Shown here in pieces: positions 28,368 through 43,101 of a stretch of 64,000 bases of DNA. Position 1 is the stretch's first letter, and each line of letters starts with the position of its first letter. A model generated the notes under the pieces. It was not told the DNA's origin. It ran no database searches and saw only the letters and a program-made list of their open reading frames with translations. The stretch is from Cellulosimicrobium protaetiae (GTDB taxonomy: Bacteria; Actinomycetota; Actinomycetes; Actinomycetales; Cellulomonadaceae), in NCBI RefSeq assembly GCF_009708005.2, contig NZ_CP052757.1, forward strand, positions 3,534,001 to 3,598,000. Direction: 5' to 3'. A program made the position numbers and the translations under genes.

Positions 28368-29861
28368 TCAGCAGGTCGTCGTGACCTCGTAGCGGCCCGG
28401 CGCGGCCCCGCGGAGGGTCGTGACCGTCGCGTCGCCCTGGCCGAGGTACGCGAGCGAGCCCACCGCGTAGTACGGGTTGTACGGGTTCACGCCGTAGGAG
28501 ATCGCCCGGCCGGCGGCCCGGTGCTGGGCGTTGGTCGCCGTCCCGCACCATGGCCCGGACGGCGCCTGGACCGTCACGGTGACCTGCGTCGTCGTCGCGT
28601 TGCCCGCGGCGTCCACCGCGCGCGCCGCGAGCACGTGCGTCCCGGGCGGGAGCGCCGCCGTGTCCCAGTCGTACGCGTACGGGGCAGAGCGCAGCGTCGC
28701 GAGGGCCGCGCCGTCCACGCTCAGCTCGACGCGGTCCACCGCGCGCTCGTCCGACGCCGTGACCCGCACCGGGACGATCCCGGACACGACCCCGCCCTCG
28801 GCAGGCGACGTGAGCTCGACCGTCGGGGCGACGACGTCGGGGTCCGGCCCGGTGCCGGGGTCACGGTCGACGCGGCGGTTGTTCTCGAACAGGAAGTCGG
28901 TGAGGTAGGCCGGGTAGTCGACGCTGCTCGTCGACACGTATGCCCCGCCCGGGCCGCCGCCCGCGGGCCACGCGTGGGCGAGCCCGGTGTTCCGCACCAG
29001 CGAGACGCGCGGGCCGTCGGCGTCGGACCACAGCGAGCCGGAGCCCGCCGTGTTCGTCCCCGGGAGCCCGGCGAGCGAGAACGACGACGTGGCCCCGGCG
29101 CCGTAGAGGTCGGCCATGACCTGGGCGTTGAGCGTCCCGTAGCCGGTCGCGACGGTCGTGTCGGCGCTGCCGAAGACGACGGACGTCACCTGCGAGCCGA
29201 AGTCCGCCGCGTGCGTCCCCGCGAACGTCCGGCACGTGGAGCGCGCCTGCGCGAGCGTCGTCGCGACGCTCCCGATCTGGCCCGACGTCGTCCCGACGGT
29301 CGGACCGGCCGCGATCCCGACGCCGGCGAACACGTCGGGCGCGAGGCAGCCCATGACCATCGCCTGGCCGCCGCCGGAGGACAGCCCGCTGACGTAGACC
29401 TGGTCCGGGTCGATGCCGAGCGAGGTGTCGGCGAGCAGGGCCGAGACGAGGTCGAGCAGGTTGTCGTCGTGGCGCGCGGGGTTCGTGCGGCTGTGGTTCG
29501 TGTCGTAGTAGTCCCAGCAGCCCAGCAGGACGCCGCCGTTCGGCGCGGCAGGGATCGCCACGACCATGCCGTGGTCGTCGGCGGTGGCCGCCCAGTTGCC
29601 CGCGTTCTTGAGCACCTGGGAGGTCTGGACGCAGCCGTGCAACGAGATCATGAGCGCCCGACCGCCGGGGAGCGCGGGCTCGCTCGTCGGCCGGTACACC
29701 TCGACCGTCATGCCGCCGGCCGAGCGCTGCGACCAGGAGCCGGCGGCGGAGGCCGGTGCGATCACGAGCGGCGCGAGCACGACGGCGAGCGCCGTGCCGA
29801 GCGCGAGCGCCGCCGCGGACCGGCGGGAGCGGCTGCGCCGCCTGAGGGAGTGCCTGACCAT
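28368..29861 (-). CDS. phaZ: Secreted poly(3-hydroxybutyrate) depolymerase, catalytic domain type 1 with C-terminal polymer-binding-like domain
   Basis: Extracellular serine esterase cleaving PHB to 3-hydroxybutyrate and oligomers, 497 residues. A signal peptide with basic RRRSRSRRS start ends near residue 40. Catalytic domain: oxyanion His H75 (SLHGC) N-terminal to the lipase box GLSSG with nucleophile S161, Asp D234 (GSADTTV) and His H296 (GLAHAWP); this order is that of type 1 domains. An Ig-like linker follows (about 345-432), then a 60-residue C-terminal part (NAQHRAAGRA, AVGS, TLRGAAPGRYEV) resembling the substrate-binding domain of PHB depolymerases. The ATG 29861 has GGAGG five bases upstream. 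It diverges from the 3-hydroxybutyrate operon. Another polyester or feruloyl ester is less likely. Confidence 0.88.
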   Translation of the reverse strand: MVRHSLRRRSRSRRSAAALALGTALAVVLAPLVIAPASAAGSWSQRSAGGMTVEVYRPTSEPALPGGRALMISLHGCVQTSQVLKNAGNWAATADDHGMVVAIPAAPNGGVLLGCWDYYDTNHSRTNPARHDDNLLDLVSALLADTSLGIDPDQVYVSGLSSGGGQAMVMGCLAPDVFAGVGIAAGPTVGTTSGQIGSVATTLAQARSTCRTFAGTHAADFGSQVTSVVFGSADTTVATGYGTLNAQVMADLYGAGATSSFSLAGLPGTNTAGSGSLWSDADGPRVSLVRNTGLAHAWPAGGGPGGAYVSTSSVDYPAYLTDFLFENNRRVDRDPGTGPDPDVVAPTVELTSPAEGGVVSGIVPVRVTASDERAVDRVELSVDGAALATLRSAPYAYDWDTAALPPGTHVLAARAVDAAGNATTTQVTVTVQAPSGPWCGTATNAQHRAAGRAISYGVNPYNPYYAVGSLAYLGQGDATVTTLRGAAPGRYEVTTTC

Positions 29862-29955
29862 CTGAACCTCCACGTCGAGGTCGGGTCGCCGTCGGCGCTG
29901 GACGCGCCGCGACGCGCACCGTTGCGCGCCGGACCCGGGCGAAGCGGACGTTACG

Positions 29956-29971
29956 TGTGACCTGAATCACC
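29956..29971. promoter_or_regulatory. Crp/GlxR-like site in the depolymerase promoter
   Basis: TGTGA-CCTGAA-TCACC, nine of ten positions of the TGTGA-N6-TCACA pattern, exactly between the -35 and -10 of the depolymerase promoter. This position suggests repression of the depolymerase when cAMP or an equivalent signal is bound. Confidence 0.5.
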
Positions 29972-29976
29972 TGTCA
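29961..29976. promoter_or_regulatory. Candidate shared operator, copy A
   Basis: CCTGAATCACCTGTCA; recurs with two changes at 30060-30075. Copy A lies over the depolymerase promoter, copy B at the presumed start of the operon transcript. Confidence 0.4.
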
Positions 29977-30021
29977 ACACTCCCGCATCCGGCCCTGTGG
30001 CCGGATCGTGACCGGCGCGGG

Positions 30022-30051
30022 TTGACATCGCGTCGATCGCGGATCCATGAT
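30022..30051 (+). promoter_or_regulatory. Promoter of the 3-hydroxybutyrate operon
   Basis: TTGACA (30022-30027), 18-base spacer, CATGAT (30046-30051). Transcription would begin near 30058, about 66 bases before the binding-protein start. Confidence 0.6.
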
Positions 30052-30059
30052 TCCCGCAA

Positions 30060-30075
30060 CCTGAATCGCCTCTCA
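30060..30075. promoter_or_regulatory. Candidate shared operator, copy B
   Basis: CCTGAATCGCCTCTCA, 14 of 16 bases equal to copy A, starting at about the transcription start of the operon, a position typical for a repressor. Confidence 0.4.
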
Positions 30076-30123
30076 TGTTTTTGAGCGGCGCTCCCCCAGG
30101 ACCACCCAACGAAGGGCGAAGTC

Positions 30124-31338
30124 ATGCGGACGAAGAAGTCCCAGCGGCCGGCACTCGCCGTCGCCGCGCTCGCGGCCGCGAGCCTCGTGCTCGCCGCGTG
30201 CGCGCCGACCGACGCGACCGGCGGCGACACGACCGGAGGCGAGAGCAGCGCGAGCGCCGAGCCGGTCGACGTCGGCATCATCTACTCCAAGACCGGGCCG
30301 CTCGCGGCCTACGGCGAGGCCTACTACGAGGGCTTCCAGGCCGGTCTCGACCACGCGACCGACGGCACGGGCGAGGTCGACGGCCGCCCGGTCAACGTGA
30401 CCTTCCACGACGACGGCGGCGACCCCGACAAGGCGGTCGGCCAGGCCAAGGACCTCATCGGCAAGGGCTACCAGATCCTCGGGGGCACGGTCGTGTCCGG
30501 CGTGGCGCTCAAGCTCGCCGAGCAGGCCGAGCAGAACAAGGTGCTCTACATCTCCGGCCCGGCCGCGGTCGACGCGCTCACGGGCATCAACGACTACACC
30601 TTCCGCTCGGGGCGCCAGTCGCTCCAGGACGTCGCGACGGCGGGGACGTTCGTCGACCCCGACGGCGCGAAGGTCGTCGTGTTCGCGCAGGACAACGCTT
30701 TCGGCCAGGGCAACCTCGCCGCGGTCGAGGCGGTCCTCGGCGCGCAGGGCGCCGAGGTGACGAGCGTGCTCGTGCCCGAGGACGCGACGGAGTTCACGCC
30801 GTTCGCGCACCAGATCGTCGACGCCGCGCCCGACCTCGTGTTCGTGGCGTGGGCCGGGGCGACGTCGGGCGCGATGTGGCAGGGCCTCGACCAGCAGGGC
30901 GTGCTCGACTCGACGACGGTCGTCACCGGCCTCGGCGACGTCGCGACCTACGGCGCGTACGGCGGCGCCGCGAGCAAGGTCGACTTCCTCAACCACTACT
31001 TCCCGGGCGCGGCGGGCACCGACGTCGAGGCCGCGATGCTCGCGTCGGTCGAGGAGGCCGGCAAGCAGGCGGACCTCTTCACGCCCGACGGCTTCGTCGC
31101 GGCGCAGATGATCGTCCACGCGATCACCGAGGGCGGCGACGACGTCGAGGGCATGGTCGACGCCCTCGAGGGCTGGAGCTTCGAGGGCCCCAAGGGCACG
31201 ACGACGGTCCGCGCGTCCGACCACGCCCTGGTCCAGCCGATGTACCAGGTCAAGCTCGTGGCCGACGGCGACGCCTGGGTCCCCGAGCTCGTCACCGAGG
31301 TGCCGGGCGAGGACGTCGCGCCGGCCGAGGCGGGCTGA
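30124..31338 (+). CDS. Substrate-binding lipoprotein, LivK/Peripla_BP_6 type (predicted 3-hydroxybutyrate/oligomer receptor)
   Basis: First gene of the thirteen-gene operon: 404-residue lipoprotein with signal and lipobox LAAC (C26), an acidic/Ser tether, then a type I periplasmic-binding fold starting DVGIIYSKTGPLAAYGEAYYEGFQAG, as in branched-chain amino acid and amide binding proteins (HAAT family). The operon contains no amino acid gene and is devoted to 3-hydroxybutyrate breakdown, so I infer that it binds 3-hydroxybutyrate, its short oligomers or a related short-chain acid. Start ATG 30124 with GAAGG upstream. Family firm, ligand inferred. Confidence 0.88.
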   Translation: MRTKKSQRPALAVAALAAASLVLAACAPTDATGGDTTGGESSASAEPVDVGIIYSKTGPLAAYGEAYYEGFQAGLDHATDGTGEVDGRPVNVTFHDDGGDPDKAVGQAKDLIGKGYQILGGTVVSGVALKLAEQAEQNKVLYISGPAAVDALTGINDYTFRSGRQSLQDVATAGTFVDPDGAKVVVFAQDNAFGQGNLAAVEAVLGAQGAEVTSVLVPEDATEFTPFAHQIVDAAPDLVFVAWAGATSGAMWQGLDQQGVLDSTTVVTGLGDVATYGAYGGAASKVDFLNHYFPGAAGTDVEAAMLASVEEAGKQADLFTPDGFVAAQMIVHAITEGGDDVEGMVDALEGWSFEGPKGTTTVRASDHALVQPMYQVKLVADGDAWVPELVTEVPGEDVAPAEAG

Positions 31339-31339
31339 C

Positions 31340-32116
31340 GTGGGCGAGCCGCACACCCTCCCCGCGCTCGAGGTCCGCGAGCTCGGCCTCCAGATCGGCG
31401 GGGCGCGCATCCTCCAGGGCGTGAGCCTCGCCGTCGGGCGGGGCGAGATGCTCGGGGTGATCGGGCCGAACGGTGCGGGCAAGACGACGCTCTTCAACCT
31501 GGTCTCGGGGATCCACCGCCCGACGAGCGGGTCGGTGCTCCTCGAGGGCGCGGACGTGACGACCGCCTCGGTGGCCGCGCGCGCCCGCGCCGGGCTGGGC
31601 CGCACGTTCCAGACGTCGAGCCTGTTCCCGCGCCTGAGCGTCCGGGAGAACGTGCGGCTCGCCGCGCAGGGGCGCCTCGGCGGCGCCCTGTCCGTGCTGC
31701 GGTTCCCGCGTCGCGGCGACGCCGCGACGCGGGAGGCCGACCGGCACCTGGAGACCGTGGGGCTCACGCGCCGCGCCGACGTCGCGGCCGGGGACCTGTC
31801 GCACGGCGACAAGCGCAAGCTCGAGATCGCGGTGCTCCTCGCCACGGAGCCGCGCGTCGTGCTGCTCGACGAGCCCATGGCGGGCGTGTCGTCGGCCGAC
31901 GTGCCCGGCCTCGTCGAGGTCATCCGCGACCTGCACGCGACCGGCTGCACGGTACTCATGGTCGAGCACCACATGGACGTCGTGCTGGGGCTCGTGGACC
32001 GCGTCGCCGTCATGCACCACGGCGAGCTGCTCGCGTGCGACACCCCCGACGCCGTCATGGCGGACCCGACGGTGCAGAGCGCCTACCTGGGCGTCACGGC
32101 AGGGGAGGCAGCATGA
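31340..32116 (+). CDS. ABC importer ATPase, LivG type
   Basis: ATPase subunit 1, 258 residues. Walker A GPNGAGKTT at 42-50, signature in DLSHGDKRKLEIA (S-H-G-D in place of the usual SGGQ, as in LivG proteins), Walker B VVLLDEPMAGVS, H-loop MVEHHMD. GTG start one base after the binding-protein stop. Works with the LivF-type ATPase and the two permeases downstream. Confidence 0.93.
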   Translation: MGEPHTLPALEVRELGLQIGGARILQGVSLAVGRGEMLGVIGPNGAGKTTLFNLVSGIHRPTSGSVLLEGADVTTASVAARARAGLGRTFQTSSLFPRLSVRENVRLAAQGRLGGALSVLRFPRRGDAATREADRHLETVGLTRRADVAAGDLSHGDKRKLEIAVLLATEPRVVLLDEPMAGVSSADVPGLVEVIRDLHATGCTVLMVEHHMDVVLGLVDRVAVMHHGELLACDTPDAVMADPTVQSAYLGVTAGEAA

Positions 32117-32892
32117 TCGCCGGCAGGAACCGGACCGACCGGACCGGAGCGACGGCCGACGTGCCCGTGCTCGAGGTGCGCGGGCTGTCCGCGCGCATCG
32201 CGGGACAGCAGGTCGTCGAGGACGTGACGTTCTCGGTCCCGGCGACGGGCGTCACGGCGGTGCTGGGGCGTAACGGCGTCGGCAAGACGTCGACCCTCAA
32301 GGCCGTGCTCGGCCTGATCGAGCGCCGCGGCGAGGTGCGGCTCGCGGGCGAGCGCGTCGACGGCGAGCGCACGGACAGGATCGTGCGCCGTGGCGTCGGG
32401 TACGTGCCCGAGGACCGGGAGGTGTTCGCCGGGCTCACGGTCGCGGAGAACCTGCGGCTCGCGGAGCGCGACGCGCACCCGCGCCGCGAGCTCGTCGCGG
32501 AGCTGTTCCCGGACCTCGTGCAGCGCGCGGCGCAGCGCGCCGGCACGCTCTCGGGCGGCCAGCAGCAGATGGTGTCGCTCGCGCGCGCCCTGCTCAACAC
32601 CAACCGCCTGCTCCTCGTCGACGAGCCCACCAAGGGCCTCGCGCCCCGGATCGTCGGCGAGGTGTCGGACGCGCTCGCCGAGGCGGCCCGCACGGTGCCG
32701 ATCCTGCTCGTCGAGCAGAACCTCGAGGTCATCGAGCGGCTCGCCGAGCGTGTCGTCGTGATCGACGCGGGCCGCGTCGTGCACACCGGCCCCGCGCGCG
32801 AGCTCCTCGACGATCCCGACCGCGTCCAGCAGCTCCTCGGCGTGCACGCCGAGGTCGACCACCACGGAACCGAAGGGGCGGTGGCCCGGTGA
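32113..32892 (+). CDS. ABC importer ATPase, LivF type
   Basis: ATPase subunit 2, 259 residues. Walker A GRNGVGKTS at 52-60, signature LSGGQQQMVSLARALL, Walker B LLLVDEPTKGLAP, H-loop ILLVEQN (Gln in place of His, usual in LivF). Its start overlaps the livG-type stop (ATGA). It has a roughly 17-residue N-terminal extension compared with E. coli LivF. Confidence 0.93.
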   Translation: MIAGRNRTDRTGATADVPVLEVRGLSARIAGQQVVEDVTFSVPATGVTAVLGRNGVGKTSTLKAVLGLIERRGEVRLAGERVDGERTDRIVRRGVGYVPEDREVFAGLTVAENLRLAERDAHPRRELVAELFPDLVQRAAQRAGTLSGGQQQMVSLARALLNTNRLLLVDEPTKGLAPRIVGEVSDALAEAARTVPILLVEQNLEVIERLAERVVVIDAGRVVHTGPARELLDDPDRVQQLLGVHAEVDHHGTEGAVAR

Positions 32893-33764
32893 GCACGATC
32901 GTCCTTCTCCTCGTCACGGGGCTCGGCCTCGGGGCGCTGTACTTCCTCGTCGCGTCGGGCCTGTCGCTCATCTACGGGCTCATGGGCGTGCTGAACTTCG
33001 CGCACGGGTCGTTCCTCACGCTCGGCGCGTTCGGCGGCTGGTTCGTCGCGCGCTCGCTCGGCGCGGACTCGTGGGGTGTGTTCGCGCTCTCGCTGGTCGC
33101 CGGTGCGGTCGTCGGGGCGGGGGCCGCGGCGCTCACCGAGCTGCTGCTCATCCGCCCGCTCTACGAGCGGCACATCGAGCAGGTGCTCGTCACGGTCGGG
33201 CTCTCGCTCGCGTCCGTGGCGCTGTTCGAGGGCATGTGGGGCTCAGACCCCGAGTTCATCTCCGGGCCCGCGTGGCTCAAGGGCACGACCGACCTCGCGG
33301 GCGCGCCGGTGCCCAACGACCGGTTCGTCGCGATCGCCGCGGCGGCGCTCGTGCTCGGCGCGATCGTGCTGTTCCTCCGGCGCACCCGCTACGGGCTCAT
33401 CATCCGCGCGGGCGTCGAGAACCGGTCCATGGTCACGGCGCTCGGGATCGACGTGCGCAAGGCGTTCACGCTCGTGTTCGCCCTCGGCGGCGCGGCTGCG
33501 GGACTCGGCGGCGTCCTCGCCTCGCAGTACTTCGGCTACGTCTCGCCGCACCTCGGCGGGTCGCTGCTCATCTTCGCGTTCATCGTCACCGTGATCGGCG
33601 GCCTCGGGTCGCTCACCGGTGCCGCGGTCGCCTCCGTCCTCGTCGCGGTCCTGCAGCAGTTCGCGAACTACTACCTCGGCTACGGCGACCTCATCGTCGT
33701 GCTGCTGCTCGCGCTCGTGCTCCTCGTCCGTCCCACCGGCCTCCTCGGGAGGGCAGCCGCATGA
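32889..33764 (+). CDS. ABC importer permease, LivH type
   Basis: Membrane subunit of 291 residues, about eight helices. Typical LivH opening GLGLGALYFLVASGLSLIYGLMGVLNFAHGSFLTLGAF and the conserved FALGGAAAGLGGVLAS segment. GTG start overlaps the upstream stop (GTGA); stop overlaps the next start (ATGA). Confidence 0.93.
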   Translation: MSTIVLLLVTGLGLGALYFLVASGLSLIYGLMGVLNFAHGSFLTLGAFGGWFVARSLGADSWGVFALSLVAGAVVGAGAAALTELLLIRPLYERHIEQVLVTVGLSLASVALFEGMWGSDPEFISGPAWLKGTTDLAGAPVPNDRFVAIAAAALVLGAIVLFLRRTRYGLIIRAGVENRSMVTALGIDVRKAFTLVFALGGAAAGLGGVLASQYFGYVSPHLGGSLLIFAFIVTVIGGLGSLTGAAVASVLVAVLQQFANYYLGYGDLIVVLLLALVLLVRPTGLLGRAAA

Positions 33765-34918
33765 CCACCCAGACCGCTCCCCCGGCCGCGGCGGCCCCCG
33801 CCGACGACGCACCGCGCGCCCACCGGAACGCCCGTCGGGCGCCGTCGGGCACGCTCGTCCGCACGCTCGCGGGCGTCGCGCTCGTCGCGCTCCTTGCGTG
33901 CCTCCCGCTGCTGGCGATCCACGTCCCGGGCGTCCTGCCCGGCCCCACCTACACGCCCGGCGCGCTCCAGATGATGGCGCTGTGCTGGCTCATCGGCGCG
34001 CTCGCCCTGAGCTACCACCTGCTGTTCGGCGTCGCGGGCCTGCTGAGCTTCGGCCACGCGCTCTACTTTGCCGCCGGCGTCTACGGGCTCGCGATCGTGC
34101 TCGACACGACCGAGATCCCGCTCCTGCCCGCCGCGGCGCTCGTGCTCGTCGGGGGCATCGTCCTCGCGCACGTCGTCGGCGCGATCTCGCTGCGCGTCAC
34201 CGGCATCTCCTTCGCGATGGTCACGCTCGCGTTCGCCCAGGCGGGCAACGTGCTGGTGCGCCGCAACCCCGGCGGGGCGACCGGCGGAGAGGAGGGCCTG
34301 GCGCTCGCGACCGGGAACGTCCCCGACGCGTTCGTCGGGGTGCTCAACACACGCAACCTCTACTGGCTCGCGCTCGCCGTGCTCGTCGGCGTCTACCTCG
34401 TCGTGCTGTGGGTCGAGCGCTCGCGCGCCGGGCACGTCGCGGCGGCGACGCGCGAGAACGAGATGCGCGTGCGCGTCATCGGCGGGCGCCCCTACCTCGT
34501 CAAGCTCCTCGTGTTCGTGCTCGCGGCGACGCTCGCGACAGTCGTCGGCATGGCGTACCTGCTGCTCCAGTCCGGTGCGGTGCCGCGCGCGACGTCGGCC
34601 GACTTCACGCTCACGCTGCTCGTCATGGTCGTGCTCGGCGGCGTCGGGTCCCGGTGGGGCGCGATCGTCGGCGGCGTGCTCTACACGATCCTCGACCAGC
34701 GGCTCGGGACGCTCGCGAGCTCCGCGGCCGTCGCGGACCTCCCGGCCGTGCTGCGCGTGCCGCTCAGCGAACCGCTGTTCCTGCTCGGGACCCTCTTCAT
34801 CCTCGTCGTGATGTTCCTGCCCGGCGGGATCGCCGGCGCCGCGTCGCGCCTCGCCGCGCGCCGCCGCCCGCGGGAGGATCGGGAGGGAGCCCGCGAGCGC
34901 CTCGAGGAGGTGGCATGA
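33761..34918 (+). CDS. ABC importer permease, LivM type
   Basis: Second membrane subunit, 385 residues, about ten helices. LivM marks: LSYHLLFGVAGLLSFGHALYFAAGVY, ATRENEMRVRVIGGRPYLVKLLVFVLAA and MVVLGGVGSRWGAIVGG. A charged C-terminal tail (RRRPREDREGARERLEE) is unusual. Overlaps both neighbours by four bases. Confidence 0.93.
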   Translation: MTTQTAPPAAAAPADDAPRAHRNARRAPSGTLVRTLAGVALVALLACLPLLAIHVPGVLPGPTYTPGALQMMALCWLIGALALSYHLLFGVAGLLSFGHALYFAAGVYGLAIVLDTTEIPLLPAAALVLVGGIVLAHVVGAISLRVTGISFAMVTLAFAQAGNVLVRRNPGGATGGEEGLALATGNVPDAFVGVLNTRNLYWLALAVLVGVYLVVLWVERSRAGHVAAATRENEMRVRVIGGRPYLVKLLVFVLAATLATVVGMAYLLLQSGAVPRATSADFTLTLLVMVVLGGVGSRWGAIVGGVLYTILDQRLGTLASSAAVADLPAVLRVPLSEPLFLLGTLFILVVMFLPGGIAGAASRLAARRRPREDREGARERLEEVA

Positions 34919-36531
34919 CGATGACGCAGCACCGGCCCGGCGCGCAGGACGGCCTGCACACCCTCGGGCGCTGGACGCGCGACCGCGCCCTCGCGACGCC
35001 GGACCGCGTCGCGGTCGACGACCGGGGCGTGACCCTGCGCTACCGCGACCTGCACGAGCGCGCGAGCACCCTGGCGGCCGCGTTCCGCGAGGCGGGCTAC
35101 GGCGTCGGGGACCGCGTGGCCACGGTGACGGGCAACAGCGCCGACCAGGTCGTGCTGTTCTTCGCGTGCGCGCAGGCGGGGCTCGTCCTCGCGCCGCTCT
35201 CGTGGCGCCTGTCGCCCGGCGAGCTCGCGGCCCAGCTCGAGCAGGCCGACCCCGCGCTCGTGCTCGTCGAGCAGGAGTTCTCCGCGCTGGCCGACGTCGC
35301 CCTGGACCGGCTCGTCCTGCCGCCTCGGCGCACCGAGCTCGGCCGCAGCGGCGTCGAGGCGCGGGTCCCCGCGCCGTCGCGCCGCCCGCGGCTGACCGAC
35401 GGCGCACGGGGTACAGGTGGCGCAGACCGTGCCGCGGTGGCGCCCGCGCCCGAGCGCCGGGACGTGCGCGACGACGACCCGCTCCTGCTCGTCTTCACGT
35501 CCGGGACGCAGGGCACGCCCAAGGGCGCGCTGCTCACGCACGCGAACTGCTTCTGGACCAACCTCTCGCTCTCGCGCACGGTCGAGCTCACGAGCCACGA
35601 CGTCGTGCTGAGCGTGCTGCCGCAGTTCCACGCGGGCGGCTGGAACATCCAGCCCCTGCTCGCGTGGTGGACCGGCGCGACGGTCGTCCTGGAGCGCACG
35701 TTCGAGCCCGAGCGCGTGCTCCAGCTCGTCGCCGAGCGCCGCGTCACCACCATGATGGGCGTCCCGACGAACTACCTGCTGCTCGCCGAGCACCCCGGCT
35801 TCGCGGACGCCGACCTGTCGTCGCTGCGGCACGCCGTCGTGGGTGGCGCGCCCATGCCGGAGCCGCTGCTGCGCACGTGGCACCGGCGCGGCGTCGCGCT
35901 CTCGCAGGGGTACGGGCTCACCGAGGCCGGGCCCAACGTGCTGTGCCTGCCCGACGACCAGGCGCGCGAACGCATCGGGTCCGCCGGGACGCCGTACCCG
36001 CACGTCGAGGTCGCGGTGGCCGACCCGGTGACCGGCCGGCACCTCGACGGACCGGCGTCCGGCGAGCTGCTGGTCCGCGGTCCCGGGGTGTTCGCCGGCT
36101 ACTTCCGCGACGACGCCGCGACGGCCGCCGTCCTGCACGACGGCTGGTTGCGCACCGGGGACCTCGTCGAGCGCGACGCCGACGGGTACTACCGCGTGGT
36201 GGACCGGATCAAGGACGTCTTCATCGTCGGCGGCGAGAACGTCACGCCGTCCGAGGTGGAGGCCGTGCTCCGGCGGCACCCCGGCGTCGCGGACGTCGCG
36301 GTCGTGGGCGTCCCCGACGGCCGGTGGGGCGAGGTCGGCGCGGCGTTCGTCGTCCCGCGCCAGGGCGTCCCCACCGACGCCGAGGACCTGGAGGCGTTCT
36401 GCCGCCGCGAGCTCGCGCACTTCAAGGTCCCGCGCCGCTTCGACCTCGTCCCGTCCCTGCCCCGCACGTCGTTGCACAAGGTGTCGCGCCGCTCGCTCGC
36501 CGAGCGCGTGACCGTCCCGGAGGACTCATGA
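34915..36531 (+). CDS. AMP-dependent acyl-CoA synthetase (short/medium-chain type)
   Basis: ANL-superfamily ligase activating a carboxylic acid to its CoA ester via an acyl-AMP, 538 residues. P-loop-like motif FTSGTQGTPKGALLTH at about 193-208, the QGYGLTEAGP block, the GWLRTGDL motif, and the C-terminal lid with RIKDVFIVGGENVTPSEVE and a catalytic Lys near SLHKVSRR. GAGGAGG lies five bases before the ATG. In this operon it could activate 3-hydroxybutyrate, acetoacetate or another short acid released from a polyester; the substrate is inferred only from context. Confidence 0.9.
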   Translation: MTMTQHRPGAQDGLHTLGRWTRDRALATPDRVAVDDRGVTLRYRDLHERASTLAAAFREAGYGVGDRVATVTGNSADQVVLFFACAQAGLVLAPLSWRLSPGELAAQLEQADPALVLVEQEFSALADVALDRLVLPPRRTELGRSGVEARVPAPSRRPRLTDGARGTGGADRAAVAPAPERRDVRDDDPLLLVFTSGTQGTPKGALLTHANCFWTNLSLSRTVELTSHDVVLSVLPQFHAGGWNIQPLLAWWTGATVVLERTFEPERVLQLVAERRVTTMMGVPTNYLLLAEHPGFADADLSSLRHAVVGGAPMPEPLLRTWHRRGVALSQGYGLTEAGPNVLCLPDDQARERIGSAGTPYPHVEVAVADPVTGRHLDGPASGELLVRGPGVFAGYFRDDAATAAVLHDGWLRTGDLVERDADGYYRVVDRIKDVFIVGGENVTPSEVEAVLRRHPGVADVAVVGVPDGRWGEVGAAFVVPRQGVPTDAEDLEAFCRRELAHFKVPRRFDLVPSLPRTSLHKVSRRSLAERVTVPEDS

Positions 36532-37226
36532 GCACCCAGCCCCGCACCGCCCGCGGCAACCGCACGCGGGCGAAGATCCTCGCCGCGGCCGAGCAGGTGT
36601 TCGCCGAGGTCGGGTACCACGACGCGTCGATCGTGAAGATCACCGAGTCCGCGGGCGTCGGGCAGGGCACGTTCTACCTGTACTTCGAGTCGAAGATCGA
36701 CGTGTTCGACGAGCTCGTCGACGACCTCAACCGCCGCGTGCGGCACGCGATGATCGAGGCGAGCTCGCAGGCGACGACGCGTCTGGCCGCCGAGCGTGCG
36801 GGCTTCGAAGCGTTCTTCCGCTTCACCGCCGAGCACCCGGCGCTCTACCGCATCGTGCGGCAGGCCGAGTTCGTCTCGCCCGGGGCGCTGCGCCGCCACT
36901 ACGCGCGCATCGTCGAGGGCTACATGACCGGGCTCGACAAGGCGCGCGCGAACGGCGAGGTCGGCCACGACGTCGACCCGGAGGTCGCCGCCTGGGCGCT
37001 CATGGGCATCGGCGAGATCGTCGGGATGCGCTGGGTGCTGTGGGGCGGGCGCTGGGACGAGGGCGCGGAGCCGCCGTCGTACGACACCGCGGCCGCCGAG
37101 GTCCCGCCGCACGTGTTCGAGCAGACCATGCAGTTCATCGAGCGCGCGCTCGCCGCGCCGCGGGCCGCCCCACCGGCCGGGACCGGACCCGCCACCACGA
37201 CCGACACCGAAGGAGACGCGCGATGA
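36528..37226 (+). CDS. TetR-family regulator inside the 3-hydroxybutyrate operon
   Basis: 232 residues. N-terminal TetR helix-turn-helix (residues about 12-58: TRAKILAAAEQVFAEVGY through GVGQGTFYLYFESK) and a ligand-binding domain with the FFRFTAEHPALYRIVRQAEFV segment seen in regulators of acyl-CoA metabolism. Encoded mid-operon with ATGA overlaps on both sides, so it would be made together with the pathway and probably autoregulates it, responding to a pathway acid or CoA ester. The paired motif at 29961 and 30060 is a candidate target. Confidence 0.9.
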   Translation: MSTQPRTARGNRTRAKILAAAEQVFAEVGYHDASIVKITESAGVGQGTFYLYFESKIDVFDELVDDLNRRVRHAMIEASSQATTRLAAERAGFEAFFRFTAEHPALYRIVRQAEFVSPGALRRHYARIVEGYMTGLDKARANGEVGHDVDPEVAAWALMGIGEIVGMRWVLWGGRWDEGAEPPSYDTAAAEVPPHVFEQTMQFIERALAAPRAAPPAGTGPATTTDTEGDAR

Positions 37227-38017
37227 CCGCCGCCGCCACCGTCCCCGCAGGCATCCCCGCCGGGTCCGGCGCCCCGACGCTCGCCGGGCGCCGCGCGCTC
37301 GTCACGGGCGGCGCGAGCGGCATCGGCGCCGCGTGCGCGCGCGAGCTCGCCGCGCGCGGCGCGCACGTGACCGTCGCCGACGTCGACCCCGACGGCGCGC
37401 GCCGCCTCGCGGACGAGCTCGGCGGCGAGGCGTGGGTCGTCGACCTCGCCGACACGCGCGCGCTCGACGACCTCACGCTCGACGTCGACGTCCTCGTCAA
37501 CAACGCGGGCGTGCAGCGCGTGAGCCCCATCGAGGACTTCCGGCCCGACGACTTCCGCCTGCTCCACGCGATCATGCTCGAGGCGCCGTTCCTGCTGGTC
37601 CGCGCCGCGCTGCCGGGGATGTACGCGCGCGGGTTCGGGCGCGTCGTCAACGTCTCGTCCGTGCACGGCCTCGTCGCGTCGCCGTTCAAGTCGGCGTACG
37701 TGTCCGCGAAGCACGGGCTCGAGGGGTTGTCCAAGGTGACGGCGCTCGAGGGCGGCCCGCACGGCGTGACGAGCGTGTGCGTCAACCCCGGGTACGTGCG
37801 CACGCCGCTCGTCGAGAGGCAGATCGCGGACCAGGCGCGCGTGCACGGCATCCCCGAGTCCGAGGTGCTCGCGACGGTGCTCCTCGCCGAGTCCGCGGTG
37901 AAGCGGCTCGTCGAGCCGGAGGAGGTCGCGTCGCTCGTCGGCTGGCTCACCGGCCCCGACGCGTCGATGGTCTCGGGGGCCTCGTGGACGATCGACGGCG
38001 GCTGGAGCGCCCGGTGA
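37223..38017 (+). CDS. bdhA: D-3-hydroxybutyrate dehydrogenase (SDR family)
   Basis: NAD-dependent short-chain dehydrogenase oxidising (R)-3-hydroxybutyrate to acetoacetate, 264 residues. Cofactor motif TGGASGIG at 28-35, NNAG at 93-96, catalytic S145/S146, Y159 and K163 (YVSAK). The residues that bind the substrate in the Pseudomonas fragi enzyme (Gln94, His144, Lys152, Gln196, from memory) are matched at Q98, H148, K156 and Q200 with a constant offset of four. This makes the call specific rather than a generic SDR. Overlaps the TetR gene by four bases. Confidence 0.93.
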   Translation: MTAAATVPAGIPAGSGAPTLAGRRALVTGGASGIGAACARELAARGAHVTVADVDPDGARRLADELGGEAWVVDLADTRALDDLTLDVDVLVNNAGVQRVSPIEDFRPDDFRLLHAIMLEAPFLLVRAALPGMYARGFGRVVNVSSVHGLVASPFKSAYVSAKHGLEGLSKVTALEGGPHGVTSVCVNPGYVRTPLVERQIADQARVHGIPESEVLATVLLAESAVKRLVEPEEVASLVGWLTGPDASMVSGASWTIDGGWSAR

Positions 38018-39114
38018 CCGCGGGTGCGACCGCGGGCACGGCTGCCCGCCCGACGACGGACCCCGCGCGCGCGTCGCACGACGTCACCGCGGCGACCCAC
38101 ACCTACGCGACGCTCGACGTGCCCGTCGCGGGCGGCCGTCTCCGCGTCGGCGTGTGGGACCCGGTCGACCCGCTCGCACCCGGGCCGGGCGCCCGGCCCG
38201 ACGGCGGCACGCACCCCGCGCACGACGCGGTCCCGACCGTCCTCGCCGTGCACGGCATCACGGCGTCGCACCGCGCGTGGCCGGCGGTCGCCGCGGCCCT
38301 CCCGGGCGTGCGCGTCGTCGCGCCCGACCTGCGGGGGCGCGGGCGCAGCAACGCCCTGCCCGGCCCGTACGGCATGGGTGCGCACGCGGACGACCTCGCG
38401 ACGGTCCTCGACGCGCTGGGGATCGACCGCGTCGTGGCGCTCGGCCACTCCATGGGGGCGTTCGTGTCCGTCGTGCTCGCGCACCGCCACCCCGGCCGCG
38501 TCTCCCGGCTCGTGCTCGTCGACGGCGGTATCCCGCTCCCGCCGCCGACCGGGCTCGCGCCCGACGCGACGCACGACGAGGTCCTGCGCGCCCTGCTCGG
38601 CCCGGCCGTCGAGCGCCTCGAGCGCACGTTCGCCGACCACGAGGAGTACCGCGGCTTCTGGCGCGCGCACCCCGCGTTCGCGAGCGCGTGGGACGAGCCG
38701 TGGGGCGACGTCGTCGCGGGGTACGTCGACTACGACCTCGTCGGCGAGGCGCCCGCGCTGCGCCCGGCGTCGTCGGGCGCGGCGGTCTCCGCCGACTCGC
38801 TCGAGCTCTACGAGGGCGGGCCGCTCGCGGACGCGCTCGCGGGCGACCACCCGCTCGACGTGCCCCTCGTGCTGCTGCGCGCGCCGCGCGGCCTGCTCGA
38901 CGAGCCCGAGGCCCTCTACTCGCCCGAGCACCTCGCCGCGTGGCGCGCGCGGCTGCCGGGGCTGCGCACCCGCGACGTAGCGGGTATCAATCACTACACG
39001 ATCATCATGAGCCCGCCCGGCGTCGAGGCCGTCGCGGGCGAGACCCTGCGGGCCCTGGCCGCCGTCACGAGCGGCGGACCCGGACCGGCGAGTGACGAGG
39101 AGGTCACGGCATGA
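38014..39114 (+). CDS. Alpha/beta hydrolase, candidate intracellular 3-hydroxybutyrate oligomer esterase
   Basis: 366 residues, cytoplasmic (no signal). After a low-complexity N-terminus of about 35 residues comes an alpha/beta-hydrolase fold: oxyanion HG at 80-81, nucleophile S146 in GHSMG, and a catalytic His probably in GINHYTIIM near residue 327. GTG start overlaps bdhA (GTGA). Placed between 3-hydroxybutyrate dehydrogenase and CoA transferase, it most likely cleaves imported oligomers or another short ester. Function inferred from context. Confidence 0.82.
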   Translation: MTAGATAGTAARPTTDPARASHDVTAATHTYATLDVPVAGGRLRVGVWDPVDPLAPGPGARPDGGTHPAHDAVPTVLAVHGITASHRAWPAVAAALPGVRVVAPDLRGRGRSNALPGPYGMGAHADDLATVLDALGIDRVVALGHSMGAFVSVVLAHRHPGRVSRLVLVDGGIPLPPPTGLAPDATHDEVLRALLGPAVERLERTFADHEEYRGFWRAHPAFASAWDEPWGDVVAGYVDYDLVGEAPALRPASSGAAVSADSLELYEGGPLADALAGDHPLDVPLVLLRAPRGLLDEPEALYSPEHLAAWRARLPGLRTRDVAGINHYTIIMSPPGVEAVAGETLRALAAVTSGGPGPASDEEVTA

Positions 39115-39995
39115 GCCCCACGATCGCGTCCCCACGAGGGACCGGGCTGGACAAGGTGGTCGCGTCCGCGGCCGAGGCCGTCGCGGACGTGCCCGACGGC
39201 GCGTCGCTCGCCGTCGGCGGGTTCGGCCTGTGCGGCAACCCCATCGCGCTCATCGAGGCGCTGCTCGCCCAGGGCACGCGCGACCTGTGGGTCGTGAGCA
39301 ACAACTGCGGGGTCGACGACTGGGGCCTGGGCGTCCTGCTCGGCGCGGGGCGCATCCGGAAGATGACGAGCTCGTACGTCGGCGAGAACAAGGAGTTCGA
39401 GCGGCAGTTCCTCTCGGGCGAGCTCGAGCTGGAGCTCACCCCGCAGGGCACGCTCGCGGAGAAGCTGCGCGCCGGGGGCGCGGGCATCGCCGGGTTCTGG
39501 ACGCGCACGGGCGTCGGCACGCAGGTCGCCGAGGGCGGCCTGCCCCAGCGGTACGACGGCGCGGGCGGCGTCGCGCAGGCGAGCGCGCCCAAGGAGGTGC
39601 GCACGTTCGGCGTCGGGCCGCGCGGTCGCGACGGCGCGTTCGCCGACGACGCCGAGTTCGTCCTCGAGGACGCGATCACCACGGACTTCGCGCTCGTGCA
39701 CGCGCTGCGCGGCGACCGGCACGGCAACCTCGTGTTCCACCGGTCGGCCCGCAACTTCTCCCCGCTCGCCGCGATGGCGGGCCGCGTGTGCGTCGCGCAG
39801 GTCGAGGAGCTCGTCGAGCCCGGCGAGATCGACCCCGACGCCGTGCACCTGCCCGGCGTGTTCGTGCACCGCGTCGTCGAGGTCGGCCCCGACGCGCCCA
39901 AGCGCATCGAGCGTCGCACCGTGCGCCCGGTCGCCACGACCGACCAGCCCGCGCCCGCGCCGTCGGGCACCGCGACCAGCGTGAAGGAGGGCTGA
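39111..39995 (+). CDS. scoA: 3-oxoacid CoA-transferase subunit A
   Basis: Alpha subunit of succinyl-CoA:3-ketoacid (acetoacetate) CoA-transferase, 294 residues, about 50 longer than most bacterial A subunits because of a C-terminal extension. Family blocks: LAVGGFGLCGNPIALIEAL, VVSNNCGVDDWGLG, ELELTPQGTLAEKLRAGGAGIAGF and the DFALVHALRGDRHGNLVF segment. Transfers CoA to acetoacetate made by BdhA. The ATG overlaps the hydrolase stop; subunit B follows after three bases. Confidence 0.94.
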   Translation: MSPTIASPRGTGLDKVVASAAEAVADVPDGASLAVGGFGLCGNPIALIEALLAQGTRDLWVVSNNCGVDDWGLGVLLGAGRIRKMTSSYVGENKEFERQFLSGELELELTPQGTLAEKLRAGGAGIAGFWTRTGVGTQVAEGGLPQRYDGAGGVAQASAPKEVRTFGVGPRGRDGAFADDAEFVLEDAITTDFALVHALRGDRHGNLVFHRSARNFSPLAAMAGRVCVAQVEELVEPGEIDPDAVHLPGVFVHRVVEVGPDAPKRIERRTVRPVATTDQPAPAPSGTATSVKEG

Positions 39996-39998
39996 GGC

Positions 39999-40703
39999 AT
40001 GGCGCTCACCCGTGACGAGATGGCCGCGCGCGCCGCGCGCGAGCTCCAGGACGGCTGGTACGTCAACCTCGGCATCGGCCTGCCGACGCTCGTGCCCAAC
40101 TACGTGCCCCAGGACAAGCACCTCGTGCTCCAGTCGGAGAACGGGATCCTCGGCGTCGGGCCGTACCCGACCGAGGACGCCGTGGACCCCGACCTCATCA
40201 ACGCCGGCAAGGAGACCGTCACCGTCCTGCCGGGCGCCGCGTTCTTCGACTCCGCGCTGAGCTTCGGCATGATCCGCGGCGGCAAGATCGACGCCGCGAT
40301 CCTCGGCGGCATGCAGGTCTCCGCGACGGGCGACCTCGCCAACTGGATGATCCCCGGCAAGATGGTCAAGGGCCCCGGCGGCGCGATGGACCTCGTGCAC
40401 GGGGCCGCGCGCGTCATCGTCCTCATGGAGCACGTCGCGCGCGACGGCTCGCCCAAGATCTTGCGCTCGTGCTCGCTGCCCCTCACCGGGCGGGGCGTCG
40501 TGCACCGGATCATCACCGATCTCGCCGTGATCGACGTGACGCCCGACGGCCTCGTGCTGCGCGAGACCGCACCCGGCGTGAGCGTCGACGACGTGCGCGC
40601 CGCGACCGAGCCAGACCTCGCCGTCGCGCTCGACGACGCCCCGCTCGACGTCGCCGATGCCGGCCCGGGGCCGTCCACCCAGGCCGCCGGGACGCCGTCG
40701 TGA
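39999..40703 (+). CDS. scoB: 3-oxoacid CoA-transferase subunit B
   Basis: Beta subunit, 234 residues, with the catalytic glutamate E47 in [10 protein letters not shown] that forms the CoA thioester. [14 protein letters not shown] and the [32 protein letters not shown] block are typical. The Ala/Pro-rich tail after about residue 215 is not conserved. Stop overlaps the next gene (GTGA). Confidence 0.95.
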
Positions 40704-41866
40704 CGCGCGACGTGCTGCGGCGTGACGTGCTGCGCCACGACGTCCCCACCCCGCGCGGGCGCGAGCACGTGCGCGAGGTCGTGGCCGACGGCGACGCGCG
40801 GGCCACGGTCCTGCTCGTGCACGGCAACTGCTCGTCGTCGGCGTTCTTCGACCCCCTGCTGCGCGCGCTGCCCGCCGACGTGCGCGGCGTCGCCGTCGAC
40901 CTGCGCGGGTACGGGGACGCCGAGGTCCGTCCCGTCGACGCGACGCGCGGCGTGCGGGACTACGCGGACGACGTCGCGGCCGTCGTCGACGCGCTCGATC
41001 TCGCGCGCCCGCTCGTCGCCGTCGCGCACTCCGCGGGGGCGGGGGTCGTGCTCCAGCTCGCGACCGACCGGCCCGACCTGTTCGACGCGGTCCTCCTCGA
41101 GGCGCCCATGTCGCCCTACGGGTTCGGCGGCACGCGCGACGTCGACGGGACGCCGCTCTCCCCCGACTTCGCGGGATCGGGCGCTGGGACGGCGAACCCC
41201 GCGTTCGTCGCGGCGCTCGCCGCCGGCGACCGCAGCGAGGACGCCGGGTCGCCCCGCGACGTGCTGCGCCGCTTCTACGTCGCCGACCCGGCCTCGCTCG
41301 GCGAGCCGCTCGGCGCGCTCGAGGAGCTGCTGCTCGACTCCGTGCTCTCCACGCGCACCGGCGACGGCAACTACCCGGGCGACCACACGCCGTCGGGCAC
41401 GTGGCCCGGCGTGGCACCCGGGACGGGCGGCATGAACAACGCGATCAGCGCGAGGTACTGCGACCTGTCCGGCTTCGCGGCCTCCGGCGCGACGGCACCG
41501 GTGCTGTGGGTGCGCGGCGACGCCGACGCGATCGTCTCGGACGCCTCGCTGTTCGACCTCGCACAGCTCGGCGCGCTCGGTGCGGTACCCGGCTGGCCGG
41601 GCGCCGAGACGCACCCGCCGCAGCCGATGGTCGCTCAGACCCGGGCCGTCCTCGACGCCTACGCGGCCGCGGGCGGGCGGTACCGTGAAGAGGTGCGGCC
41701 CGGCGTCGGGCACAGCCCCCACCTCGAGGAGCCGGACGTGTTCCTCGGGCTCCTGCTCGGGCTCGTGGACGACGCCGTCGCCGGCACGACCACCGTACGA
41801 GCGGGCACCACACCCCCGGCGCCCGCGCAGACACCGCCGTCCGCACCCCTGGAGGTCCAGCCGTGA
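40700..41866 (+). CDS. Alpha/beta hydrolase, second candidate oligomer hydrolase
   Basis: 388-residue cytoplasmic alpha/beta hydrolase. Oxyanion motif [10 protein letters not shown] (38-47), [24 protein letters not shown] block, nucleophile S111 in AHSAG (Ala in place of the usual first Gly), lid region [18 protein letters not shown] and ANPAFVAAL, and a late [12 protein letters not shown] with the likely catalytic His. The lid region recalls intracellular 3-hydroxybutyrate oligomer hydrolases, but this is from memory and needs a search. Overlaps scoB and the thiolase gene. Confidence 0.82.
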
Positions 41867-43101
41867 GCACCACCGCTCCTATCCCCCACGACTCCCGCGA
41901 TGCCTCTCCCGCCGCCCGCCCCGACGACGTCGTGATCGTCGCCGCCGCCCGCACTCCCCAGGGGCGGCTCAAGGGCTCGCTCGCCGCGCTGACTGCGGTC
42001 GAGCTCGGCGCCGTCGCCGCGCGCGCCGCGATCGAGCGCTCGGGGCTCGGCGCGGACGCCGTCGACGCCGTGGTGTTCGGCCAGGTGCTCCAGGCCGGGG
42101 CGGGGCAGAACCCCGCGCGCCAGACGGCCGCAGGCGCCGGCATCGGCTGGGACGTGCCCGCCGTGACGGTGAACAAGGTGTGCCTGTCCGGCCTGACCGC
42201 CGTCATCGACGGGACGCGGATGATCCGCTCCGGCGAGGCCGAGGTCGTGCTCGTCGGCGGCCAGGAGTCCATGACCAACGCGCCGCACCTGCTGCCCGGC
42301 TCGCGCGCCGGGTTCGCGTTCGGCGACGCGACGCTCGTCGACGCCGTCGCGCGCGACGGGCTCACCGACGCGTTCGACCGCGCCTCCATGGGCGTCTCGA
42401 CCGAGCGCACCAACACCGGCGACGTGTTCGTGTCGCGCGAGGAGCAGGACGCCGTCGCGGCGGCCTCGCACCAGCGCGCCGCGGCCGCGGCGAAGGACGG
42501 CCTGTTCGACGCCGAGCTCGCGCCCGTGAGCGTCCCGCAGCGCCGAGGCGAGCCGGTCGAGGTGCGCGACGACGAGGGCGTGCGCCCCGACACGAGCGTC
42601 GAGGGCCTCGCGCGCCTGCGACCCGCGTTCGACCCCGAGGGCACCATCACCGCGGGCAACGCGTCGCAGATCTCCGACGGCGCCGCCGCGCTCGTGCTGA
42701 CGACCCGCGCCCGGGCCGAGTCCGCGGGCGCGCCCGTGCTCGCGACCGTGCGGGCGTGGGGCCAGGTCGCCGGCCCGGACACGTCGCTGCACTCCCAGCC
42801 CGCGCGCGCGATCCGCCAGGCCCTCGACCGGGCCGGGTGGACGGTCGAGGACCTCGACCTCGTCGAGATCAACGAGGCGTTCGCGACCGTCGTCGCGGTG
42901 TCCACGCGCGTGCTCGGCGTCTCGCCGGACGTCGTCAACGTGCACGGTGGCGGCATCTCGCTCGGCCACCCCATCGGTGCGTCCGGTGCCCGCCTCGCGG
43001 TCCACGCGGCGCACGAGCTCGCACGCCGCGGCGGCGGGCGCGTCGCCGTCGGGCTGTGCGGCGGCGGGGGCCAGGGCGAGGCGCTGCTCCTGGAGGCCTG
43101 A
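41863..43101 (+). CDS. Acetyl-CoA acetyltransferase (thiolase)
   Basis: Degradative thiolase splitting acetoacetyl-CoA to two acetyl-CoA, 412 residues, last gene of the operon. Nucleophile C107 (NKVCLSG), H369 (SLGHPIGASG) and C399 (LCGGGGQG) complete the catalytic set; NEAFA precedes them. GTG start overlaps the hydrolase stop. With BdhA and ScoAB it completes 3-hydroxybutyrate to acetyl-CoA. A biosynthetic role (PhaA) is possible in principle, but no phaB or phaC is nearby. Confidence 0.95.
   Translation: MSTTAPIPHDSRDASPAARPDDVVIVAAARTPQGRLKGSLAALTAVELGAVAARAAIERSGLGADAVDAVVFGQVLQAGAGQNPARQTAAGAGIGWDVPAVTVNKVCLSGLTAVIDGTRMIRSGEAEVVLVGGQESMTNAPHLLPGSRAGFAFGDATLVDAVARDGLTDAFDRASMGVSTERTNTGDVFVSREEQDAVAAASHQRAAAAAKDGLFDAELAPVSVPQRRGEPVEVRDDEGVRPDTSVEGLARLRPAFDPEGTITAGNASQISDGAAALVLTTRARAESAGAPVLATVRAWGQVAGPDTSLHSQPARAIRQALDRAGWTVEDLDLVEINEAFATVVAVSTRVLGVSPDVVNVHGGGISLGHPIGASGARLAVHAAHELARRGGGRVAVGLCGGGGQGEALLLEA

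Follow-up and report, generated by a model that had tools for sequence, protein, structure and literature searches.

We describe a locus in a 64,000-nucleotide stretch of the genome of Cellulosimicrobium protaetiae (NCBI RefSeq assembly GCF_009708005.2, contig NZ_CP052757.1, positions 3,534,001 to 3,598,000 of the forward strand; hereafter the window) which, judged from sequence, is probably a regulon for the scavenging of poly(3-hydroxybutyrate) (PHB). A putative secreted depolymerase gene (phaZ, minus strand) is divergent from 13 tightly packed plus-strand genes that encode a Liv-type ATP-binding cassette (ABC) importer, the enzymes of 3-hydroxybutyrate (3HB) oxidation, two hydrolases, an acyl-CoA ligase and a TetR-family regulator. 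An earlier note on this DNA had proposed one dedicated system from extracellular polymer to acetyl-CoA, and this remains the best reading, supported by the conservation of the operon, an operator-like palindrome shared by both promoters, the recurrence of the depolymerase tie and the lack of a polyhydroxyalkanoate (PHA) synthase in the operon-bearing genomes searched. Enzymes of these types are known; the new part is the importer together with the apparently shared switch. We infer that the route would be complete, a view that depends on the importer ligand, the role of the ligase, the hydrolase substrates and induction. The features are as follows, in window coordinates.

28368–29861, minus strand: phaZ, putative secreted type 1 short-chain-length PHA (PHB) depolymerase (NF050058, TIGR01840, Big_7, Esterase_PHB)
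29960–29976, unstranded: candidate operator O1, ACCTGAATCACCTGTCA, overlapping the TTGACA (TGTCAA on the plus strand) taken as the phaZ −35 element
30022–30051, plus strand: predicted sigma-70-type operon promoter, TTGACA-N18-CATGAT
30058–30079, unstranded: candidate operator O2, AACCTGAATCGCCTCTCATGTT, just downstream of the −10 element of the livK promoter
30124–31338, plus strand: livK, lipoprotein-like substrate-binding protein of a Liv/HAAT-type ABC importer (Peripla_BP_6, 1.3e-55, and orthologues)
31340–32116, plus strand: livG, ATPase (ABC_tran)
32113–32892, plus strand: livF, ATPase (ABC_tran)
32889–33764, plus strand: livH, permease (BPD_transp_2)
33761–34918, plus strand: livM, permease (BPD_transp_2)
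34915–36531, plus strand: acyl-CoA ligase (AMP-binding; best NCBIfam model PRK06187, below cut-off)
36528–37226, plus strand: TetR-family regulator, proposed repressor of both promoters (TetR_N; co-occurrence with the operator)
37223–38017, plus strand: bdhA, 3HB dehydrogenase (NF009093; nearest PDB structures)
38014–39114, plus strand: hyd1, alpha/beta hydrolase, proposed intracellular 3HB-oligomer hydrolase (Abhydrolase_1)
39111–39995, plus strand: scoA, 3-oxoacid CoA-transferase (SCOT) subunit A (TIGR02429, 234.2, cut-off 128.5)
39999–40703, plus strand: scoB, SCOT subunit B (TIGR02428, 329.8, cut-off 243.55)
40700–41866, plus strand: hyd2, alpha/beta hydrolase akin to intracellular PHB depolymerases and proposed to act as a second oligomer hydrolase (NCBIfam i_nPHAscl; fold match)
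41863–43101, plus strand: thl, acetyl-CoA C-acetyltransferase (thiolase; TIGR01930, 405, cut-off 240.55)
26993–28279, adjoining phaZ: NhaA-type Na+/H+ antiporter gene (PF06965)

A check of the sequence confirmed all 14 genes of the earlier note as open reading frames at the positions and in the order it gave, and the four-base overlaps that it took to be nearly universal occur at 10 of the 12 operon junctions (the exceptions are a 1-base gap between livK and livG and a 3-base gap between scoA and scoB). Its start codon for phaZ has been revised by eye, ATG at 29861 being preferred over GTG at 29873. Its gene family labels agree with the family searches, with three soft spots: phaZ clears the cut-off of its model by a small margin, BdhA does so for only one of its two models, and no specific assignment was obtained for the ligase or for either hydrolase. 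The two operator-like palindromes were absent from that note.

The operon is conserved in Actinomycetia. At the family level a livK match (E ≤ 1e-40) is present in 27 of 150 genomes and phaZ in 18, and all 18 phaZ genomes are among the 27 with livK (Fisher p 6e-17, kinship ignored). Of these 18 genomes, 17 (that of the window among them) have phaZ adjacent to livK and divergent from it, and in the remaining one (G005), where phaZ lies on another contig, it is preceded by an operator-like site; the operon genes are thus not scattered in relatives without a tie to the depolymerase, an outcome that the earlier note had named as fatal to its proposal. Two of the 26 family neighborhoods are contig stubs (L079, L081), and the other 24 all contain livKGFHM, the ligase, tetR, bdhA, scoA, scoB and thl. 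hyd1 is found in 23 of these (the exception, L069, shows hyd1 in a longer locus of the same contig, L143), 10 are without hyd2, and 8 have hyd1 and bdhA in the opposite order. At the class level livK matches (E ≤ 1e-60) in 30 of 394 genomes.

After the removal of repeats, 100 of 114 distinct loci were used for presence counts under our own identity limits, the rest being too short: livGFHM is present in all 100 and hyd1 in 98; 85 have both the ligase and tetR, 76 have bdhA and 24 have a phaZ-like gene. The counts of scoAB, hyd2 and thl are lower bounds because one set of the loci reaches at most 10 kb past livK. Where at least 12.5 kb is available downstream (44 loci), tetR is present in 34, all of which have hyd1 and the ligase, and 29 of the 34 have all of bdhA, hyd1, scoA, scoB and thl. 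Among the 24 loci without a counted bdhA (L134 only by the identity limit), 15 genomes were searched, and each has one bdhA orthologue elsewhere (60–75% identity). The closest named relatives at the locus are Cellulosimicrobium (livK 94–98%).

Some loci are of interest in their own right. In three genomes (G551, G554 and G550; L271 4634–10356, L276 2215–9934 and L263 1498–3728) the distant bdhA stands beside a second Liv-type ABC set, 26% (livK, in L271) to 45% like that of the window. In family f33 (genomes of 1.9 and 1.4 Mb; L133 2722–8698 and L134 10475–16967), of which six genomes matched in the class-level livK search and two were examined, hyd1 and a 3HB dehydrogenase gene are divergent from livKGFHM; this set is 41–56% like that of the window and the dehydrogenase scores over the NF009093 cut-off. 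The labels of L140, L153 and L194, recorded as Sphaerisporangium, Sphaerimonospora and an Acidobacteria metagenome-assembled genome, look doubtful, as the loci are Cellulosimicrobium-, Promicromonospora- and Micrococcales-like, respectively.

The strongest evidence that the depolymerase, the importer and Hyd2 may form one regulon is the shared operator. The palindrome AACCTGA-N8-TCAGGTT was derived by inspecting the regions upstream of livK in the fetched loci, and is present at both promoters of the window (core 29960–29976 and 30058–30079). The livK-side promoter, TTGACA-N18-CATGAT, matches at 10 of 12 positions in a promoter scan (shuffles: mean 0.0, sd 0.2), and the phaZ promoter, read by eye, has a weak −10 element. 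Because the pattern came from the same loci, operator counts within this set are descriptive; the more independent tests are the genome-wide search and the sites found before phaZ (G005) and before hyd2 (G549). In the 4.78 Mb source genome (two contigs) the 17-base core with at most two mismatches is found at two sites, both in the gap between phaZ and livK, and a reversed-pattern control at the same stringency has no match. Of the three operator-like matches in G005, the best precedes phaZ on its separate contig (1 mismatch in 17) and another precedes livK; the third looks like a chance match. G549 has two matches, one upstream of livK and the other, on another contig, upstream of a hyd2 homologue (50%) (both genomes are drafts, and contigs are as assembled). 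The reversed control at up to two mismatches gave as many as 4 matches per genome (G546) among 14 genomes, and none in G005 and G549; single two-mismatch operator matches among the 14 genomes were therefore distrusted. In G551 (L234/L245), two identical two-mismatch sites resembling the operator are separated by 47 bases, and no gene of the operon was found within the 3 kb available.

Within the set, all 17 loci with an adjacent phaZ besides the window have exactly two sites, and the 72 tetR loci without an adjacent phaZ have one site in 70 cases and none, at that stringency, in 2. In total, 88 of 89 tetR-bearing loci have a site, compared with 2 of 2260 shuffles, which preserve base composition only. 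Among the 24 loci in which tetR was not detected, a site is present in 8 and absent from 16. The former (L079, L157, L158, L174, L181, L189, L194 and L199) are short or cut stretches in which tetR may be out of view; the latter are a stub (L081), a locus that ends in livM (L133), L122–L132, L134, L172 and L180. L172 and L180, both from Agromyces, are without ligase, tetR and operator, and five other Agromyces loci keep all three. Because tetR and the operator co-occur, TetR would be the protein that binds these sites. The ligase and tetR travel together (both in 85 of the 100 loci, neither in 15, with no mixed case), from which we guess that the ligase makes the inducer of TetR.

PhaZ looks able to act as a secreted type 1 short-chain-length PHA depolymerase, an assignment that we regard as putative. 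It scores 162.5 bits against the family model NF050058 (cut-off 150) and 167.6 bits against TIGR01840 (cut-off 107.85), and is made up of an Esterase_PHB catalytic domain, a Big_7 Ig-like linker and a polymer-binding-like C-terminal domain with a terminal Cys. The last of these is conserved and resembles, by eye, that of other depolymerases; the N-terminus is signal-peptide-like, by eye only. The four residues singled out earlier (H75, S161, D234 and H296) are present at these positions and align with the matching residues of a PHB-depolymerase-family structure (PDB identifier 8daj), and their order, oxyanion His, catalytic Ser, Asp and His, is that of type 1 depolymerases.

The association with a depolymerase recurs in other lineages. 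In L123–L129, livKGFHM-hyd1 and a bdhA orthologue (60–65%) occur with a depolymerase that is only about 30% identical to that of the window. The depolymerases tested directly against NF050058 score 316 (L126), 327 (L123) and 309 bits (L132), and those of L124, L125 and L127–L129 coincide with class-level NF050058 matches. In L116 an orthologous depolymerase gene follows hyd1 on the same strand. Thus, a depolymerase is present within the approximately 20 kb fetched in 9 of the 22 class-level loci L111–L132 (L116, L123–L129 and L132). A GAF/PucR-type regulator gene lies between the parts of the module in L126 and is also present in L130; this gene of about 660 residues beside bdhA was considered as an acetoacetyl-CoA synthetase and rejected given its GAF and PucR-type helix-turn-helix domains. 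In six phaZ-less loci (L060, L061, L065, L068, L073 and L075) an NhaA-type gene is the next recognized gene upstream of livK and one site is left; nothing is called between the two genes in L060 and L065. As the NhaA-type neighbor is the same with and without phaZ, the latter seems to have been gained or lost between fixed neighbors.

The importer comprises a Peripla_BP_6 binding protein, two ABC_tran ATPases and two BPD_transp_2 permeases, as in Liv/HAAT ABC importers. LivK scores 48.2 bits against the curated Liv amino-acid model PRK15404 (cut-off 477), and its nearest solved relatives are 3n0x and 3nnd, for whose PDB codes no relevant paper was found in the open-licence PubMed Central (PMC) literature. 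We propose LivK as a putative binder of 3HB or its oligomers. Hyd1 is encoded beside the importer in 98 of the 100 loci and its Ser146 and His327 are invariant in 20 aligned sequences. It is found with the importer more consistently than are the oxidation enzymes that were counted, which suggests that the imported compound needs an ester cut; 3HB oligomers are known products of type 1 PHB depolymerases, and we infer that the importer may take up such oligomers. The residues S111, D276 and H338 of Hyd2 are invariant in 15 aligned sequences, and its best PDB fold match, the intracellular PhaZ of B. thuringiensis (PDB identifier 8ynv, 18% identity), agrees with its best (below cut-off) sequence model. 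No relatives of livK were found in viral contigs.

The route from 3HB to acetyl-CoA through BdhA, SCOT and thiolase is well established. BdhA scores 262.9 against NF009093 (cut-off 258), its best PDB matches are 3HB dehydrogenases, and it is the best 3HB dehydrogenase match of the genome (300 bits versus 187 for the next); its orthologue in L126 passes TIGR01963 at 314.8. ScoA is the sole ScoA match in the genome and its best PDB matches are SCOT. Both CoA-transferase models (TIGR02429 and TIGR02428) are passed; because they include PcaIJ, they do not separate Sco from Pca substrates. The thiolase scores 439 bits against the acetyl-CoA model PRK08235 (below its cut-off of 526) and 282 against PcaF. 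PHA synthase (PhaC, PF07167) was found in none of the 21 operon-bearing genomes searched (of 27), the source genome included, and matched in 1 of 14 control genomes. The PHB used would therefore be external and not the cell's own storage, and endogenous PHB storage and mobilization was rejected on this ground.

Several observations weigh against the PHB-scavenging reading. The margin of phaZ over NF050058 is narrow (162.5 against 150), BdhA falls about 7 bits short of TIGR01963 (300.2, cut-off 307.05), Hyd1 matches only generic alpha/beta hydrolases in sequence and fold, Hyd2 reaches 80.8 bits of the 300 set as cut-off by its best NCBIfam model (i_nPHAscl, NF050089), and we know of no ligand for 3n0x or 3nnd. 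The phaZ-side promoter was not reported by the promoter scan, and one tetR locus (L188) has no site. A phaZ-like gene lies near only 24 of the 100 loci; the operon is therefore wider than the depolymerase, and its core job is probably to take up 3HB or 3HB oligomers, irrespective of which organism released them. Among the nine operon-bearing family genomes without phaZ (one of which, G146, is 75% complete), NF050058 has no match at E ≤ 1e-15 in eight and one below the cut-off in G058; the operon is thus not dependent on a type 1 depolymerase and can stand alone, perhaps as a scavenger of released products. Likewise, five order-level carriers have NF050058 matches below the cut-off in three cases and none in two. 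Many genomes of the class carry a depolymerase somewhere (118 of 394 over the cut-off, 177 at E ≤ 1e-25), and most of these are without this livK (found in 30 of 394), so that most depolymerases of the class are not tied to the operon.

An alternative view is that the operon serves primarily for uptake and oxidation of 3HB (or 3HB esters) from many sources, the depolymerase being an optional add-on that some lineages captured along with an operator. We give this even chances, and it is compatible with the PHB-scavenging reading. It accommodates both the scarcity of phaZ-like genes near the 100 loci and the six loci in which an NhaA-type gene is next to livK with one site left, but the non-orthologous depolymerase near the same module in other lineages shows that the polymer tie recurs. 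It is unlikely that the secreted esterase acts instead on another polyester or on plant-wall esters: there are weaker matches to feruloyl and acetylxylan esterases and the NF050058 margin is small, yet the best solved match is a PHB-depolymerase-family esterase, the polymer-binding-like C-terminal domain is conserved and the operator is shared with the 3HB route.

An importer of branched-chain amino acids that happens to neighbor ketone-body genes would explain the Liv-type domain families, and we consider it very unlikely, given the 48 of 477 bits that LivK attains against the Liv binding-protein model, the conservation of one operon over many genera, the fact that none of the 13 genes encodes an acyl-CoA dehydrogenase or carboxylase, and the presence of Hyd1 in 98 of 100 loci. 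A branch of the β-ketoadipate (aromatic) pathway, with ScoAB as PcaIJ, the thiolase as PcaF and a hydrolase as PcaD, draws on CoA-transferase models that do not separate Sco from Pca and on PcaD models among the weak hydrolase matches. However, the thiolase prefers the acetyl-CoA acetyltransferase model (439 bits) to that of PcaF (282, cut-off 597), the hydrolases score 63 and 40 bits against a PcaD cut-off of 256, and ScoA is nearest to SCOT structures. The operon also contains a 3HB dehydrogenase, an enzyme that has no place in the β-ketoadipate route. With neither the PcaF nor the PcaD model reached, we rejected this extremely improbable assignment.

The mechanism that we propose for the PHB-scavenging regulon builds on the gene families, their conservation, the two-site arrangement and the co-occurrence of tetR with the site, all of which are observed. 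The secreted depolymerase would cut external PHB into 3HB and short oligomers, the Liv-type importer would take up 3HB, its oligomers or both, Hyd1 and Hyd2 may split the oligomers in the cytoplasm, and BdhA, ScoAB and thiolase would convert 3HB to acetyl-CoA. The operon-encoded TetR would bind the two copies of AACCTGA-N8-TCAGGTT and repress both divergent promoters, until a metabolite formed along the route, perhaps a CoA thioester from the neighboring ligase, releases it. More tentatively, and with somewhat less than even confidence, we suggest that a widespread actinobacterial importer of 3HB oligomers comes with its own hydrolase (Hyd1) and a ligase–TetR sensing pair, the ligase supplying the CoA thioester to which TetR responds, that depolymerases were recruited to it by acquiring the operator, and that most carriers, small-genome lineages included, live on products released by others.

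Downstream of thl (end 43101), an Abhydrolase_9 gene at 43275 was left out of the operon because only 2 of the 13 loci examined have it next to the operon, and these two belong to the genus of the window. A scan found no terminator-like site between the two genes, so that read-through into the Abhydrolase_9 gene is possible. No RNA families were found in the window at gathering scores.

Extracellular PHB depolymerases of the Streptomyces exfoliatus type are secreted and combine a type 1 catalytic domain with a C-terminal substrate-binding domain, an architecture that PhaZ appears to share; we know of no description of a linked importer and oxidation operon for them. The earlier note knew of no described actinobacterial cluster of this kind, and we found no paper on one in the open-licence PMC literature (subscription papers lie outside it), as judged by titles and the openings of abstracts. 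The importer is like HAAT/Liv importers (nearest 3n0x and 3nnd) in its five-part architecture and unlike them in its place within a 3HB operon with a hydrolase and no amino-acid catabolism genes. Hyd2 finds its best fold match in the B. thuringiensis intracellular PhaZ (8ynv), but the two are only 18% identical and the genome of Hyd2 has no PHA synthase. The three enzyme steps are those of the ketone-body route (BdhA, SCOT and thiolase), whereas here they form one gene string with an importer, hydrolases and a regulator, again in a genome without PHA synthase.

A further parallel is ALC24_4107 of Alcanivorax sp. 24, a type 1 enzyme (e-dPHAscl) whose gene is followed directly by that of a regulator and, at a greater distance, by short-chain fatty acid genes; passages of the proteomic study speak of strong induction (PMC7187450). 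The transporters proposed there, a 'periplasmic binding protein' and an 'alpha-keto acid periplasmic' substrate-binding protein, differ in having distant locus numbers; the authors ask for their biochemical confirmation, and the passages of PMC7187450 describe no linked ABC importer operon. Going by these passages, in which the transporters are left unconfirmed, the entry of extracellular PHB hydrolysis products into cells seems poorly defined. The present locus supplies directly testable candidates, namely an importer, two oligomer hydrolases, a regulator and its likely binding site, and offers a searchable signature (importer, Hyd1 and operator) for the use of PHB products across Actinomycetia, where many carriers have no nearby depolymerase; it is thereby relevant to the breakdown of this bioplastic in nature. 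Thus, set against known systems, the enzymes and the route are textbook, and it is the importer, the regulator, the operator and the repeated association with depolymerases that make the uptake question testable.

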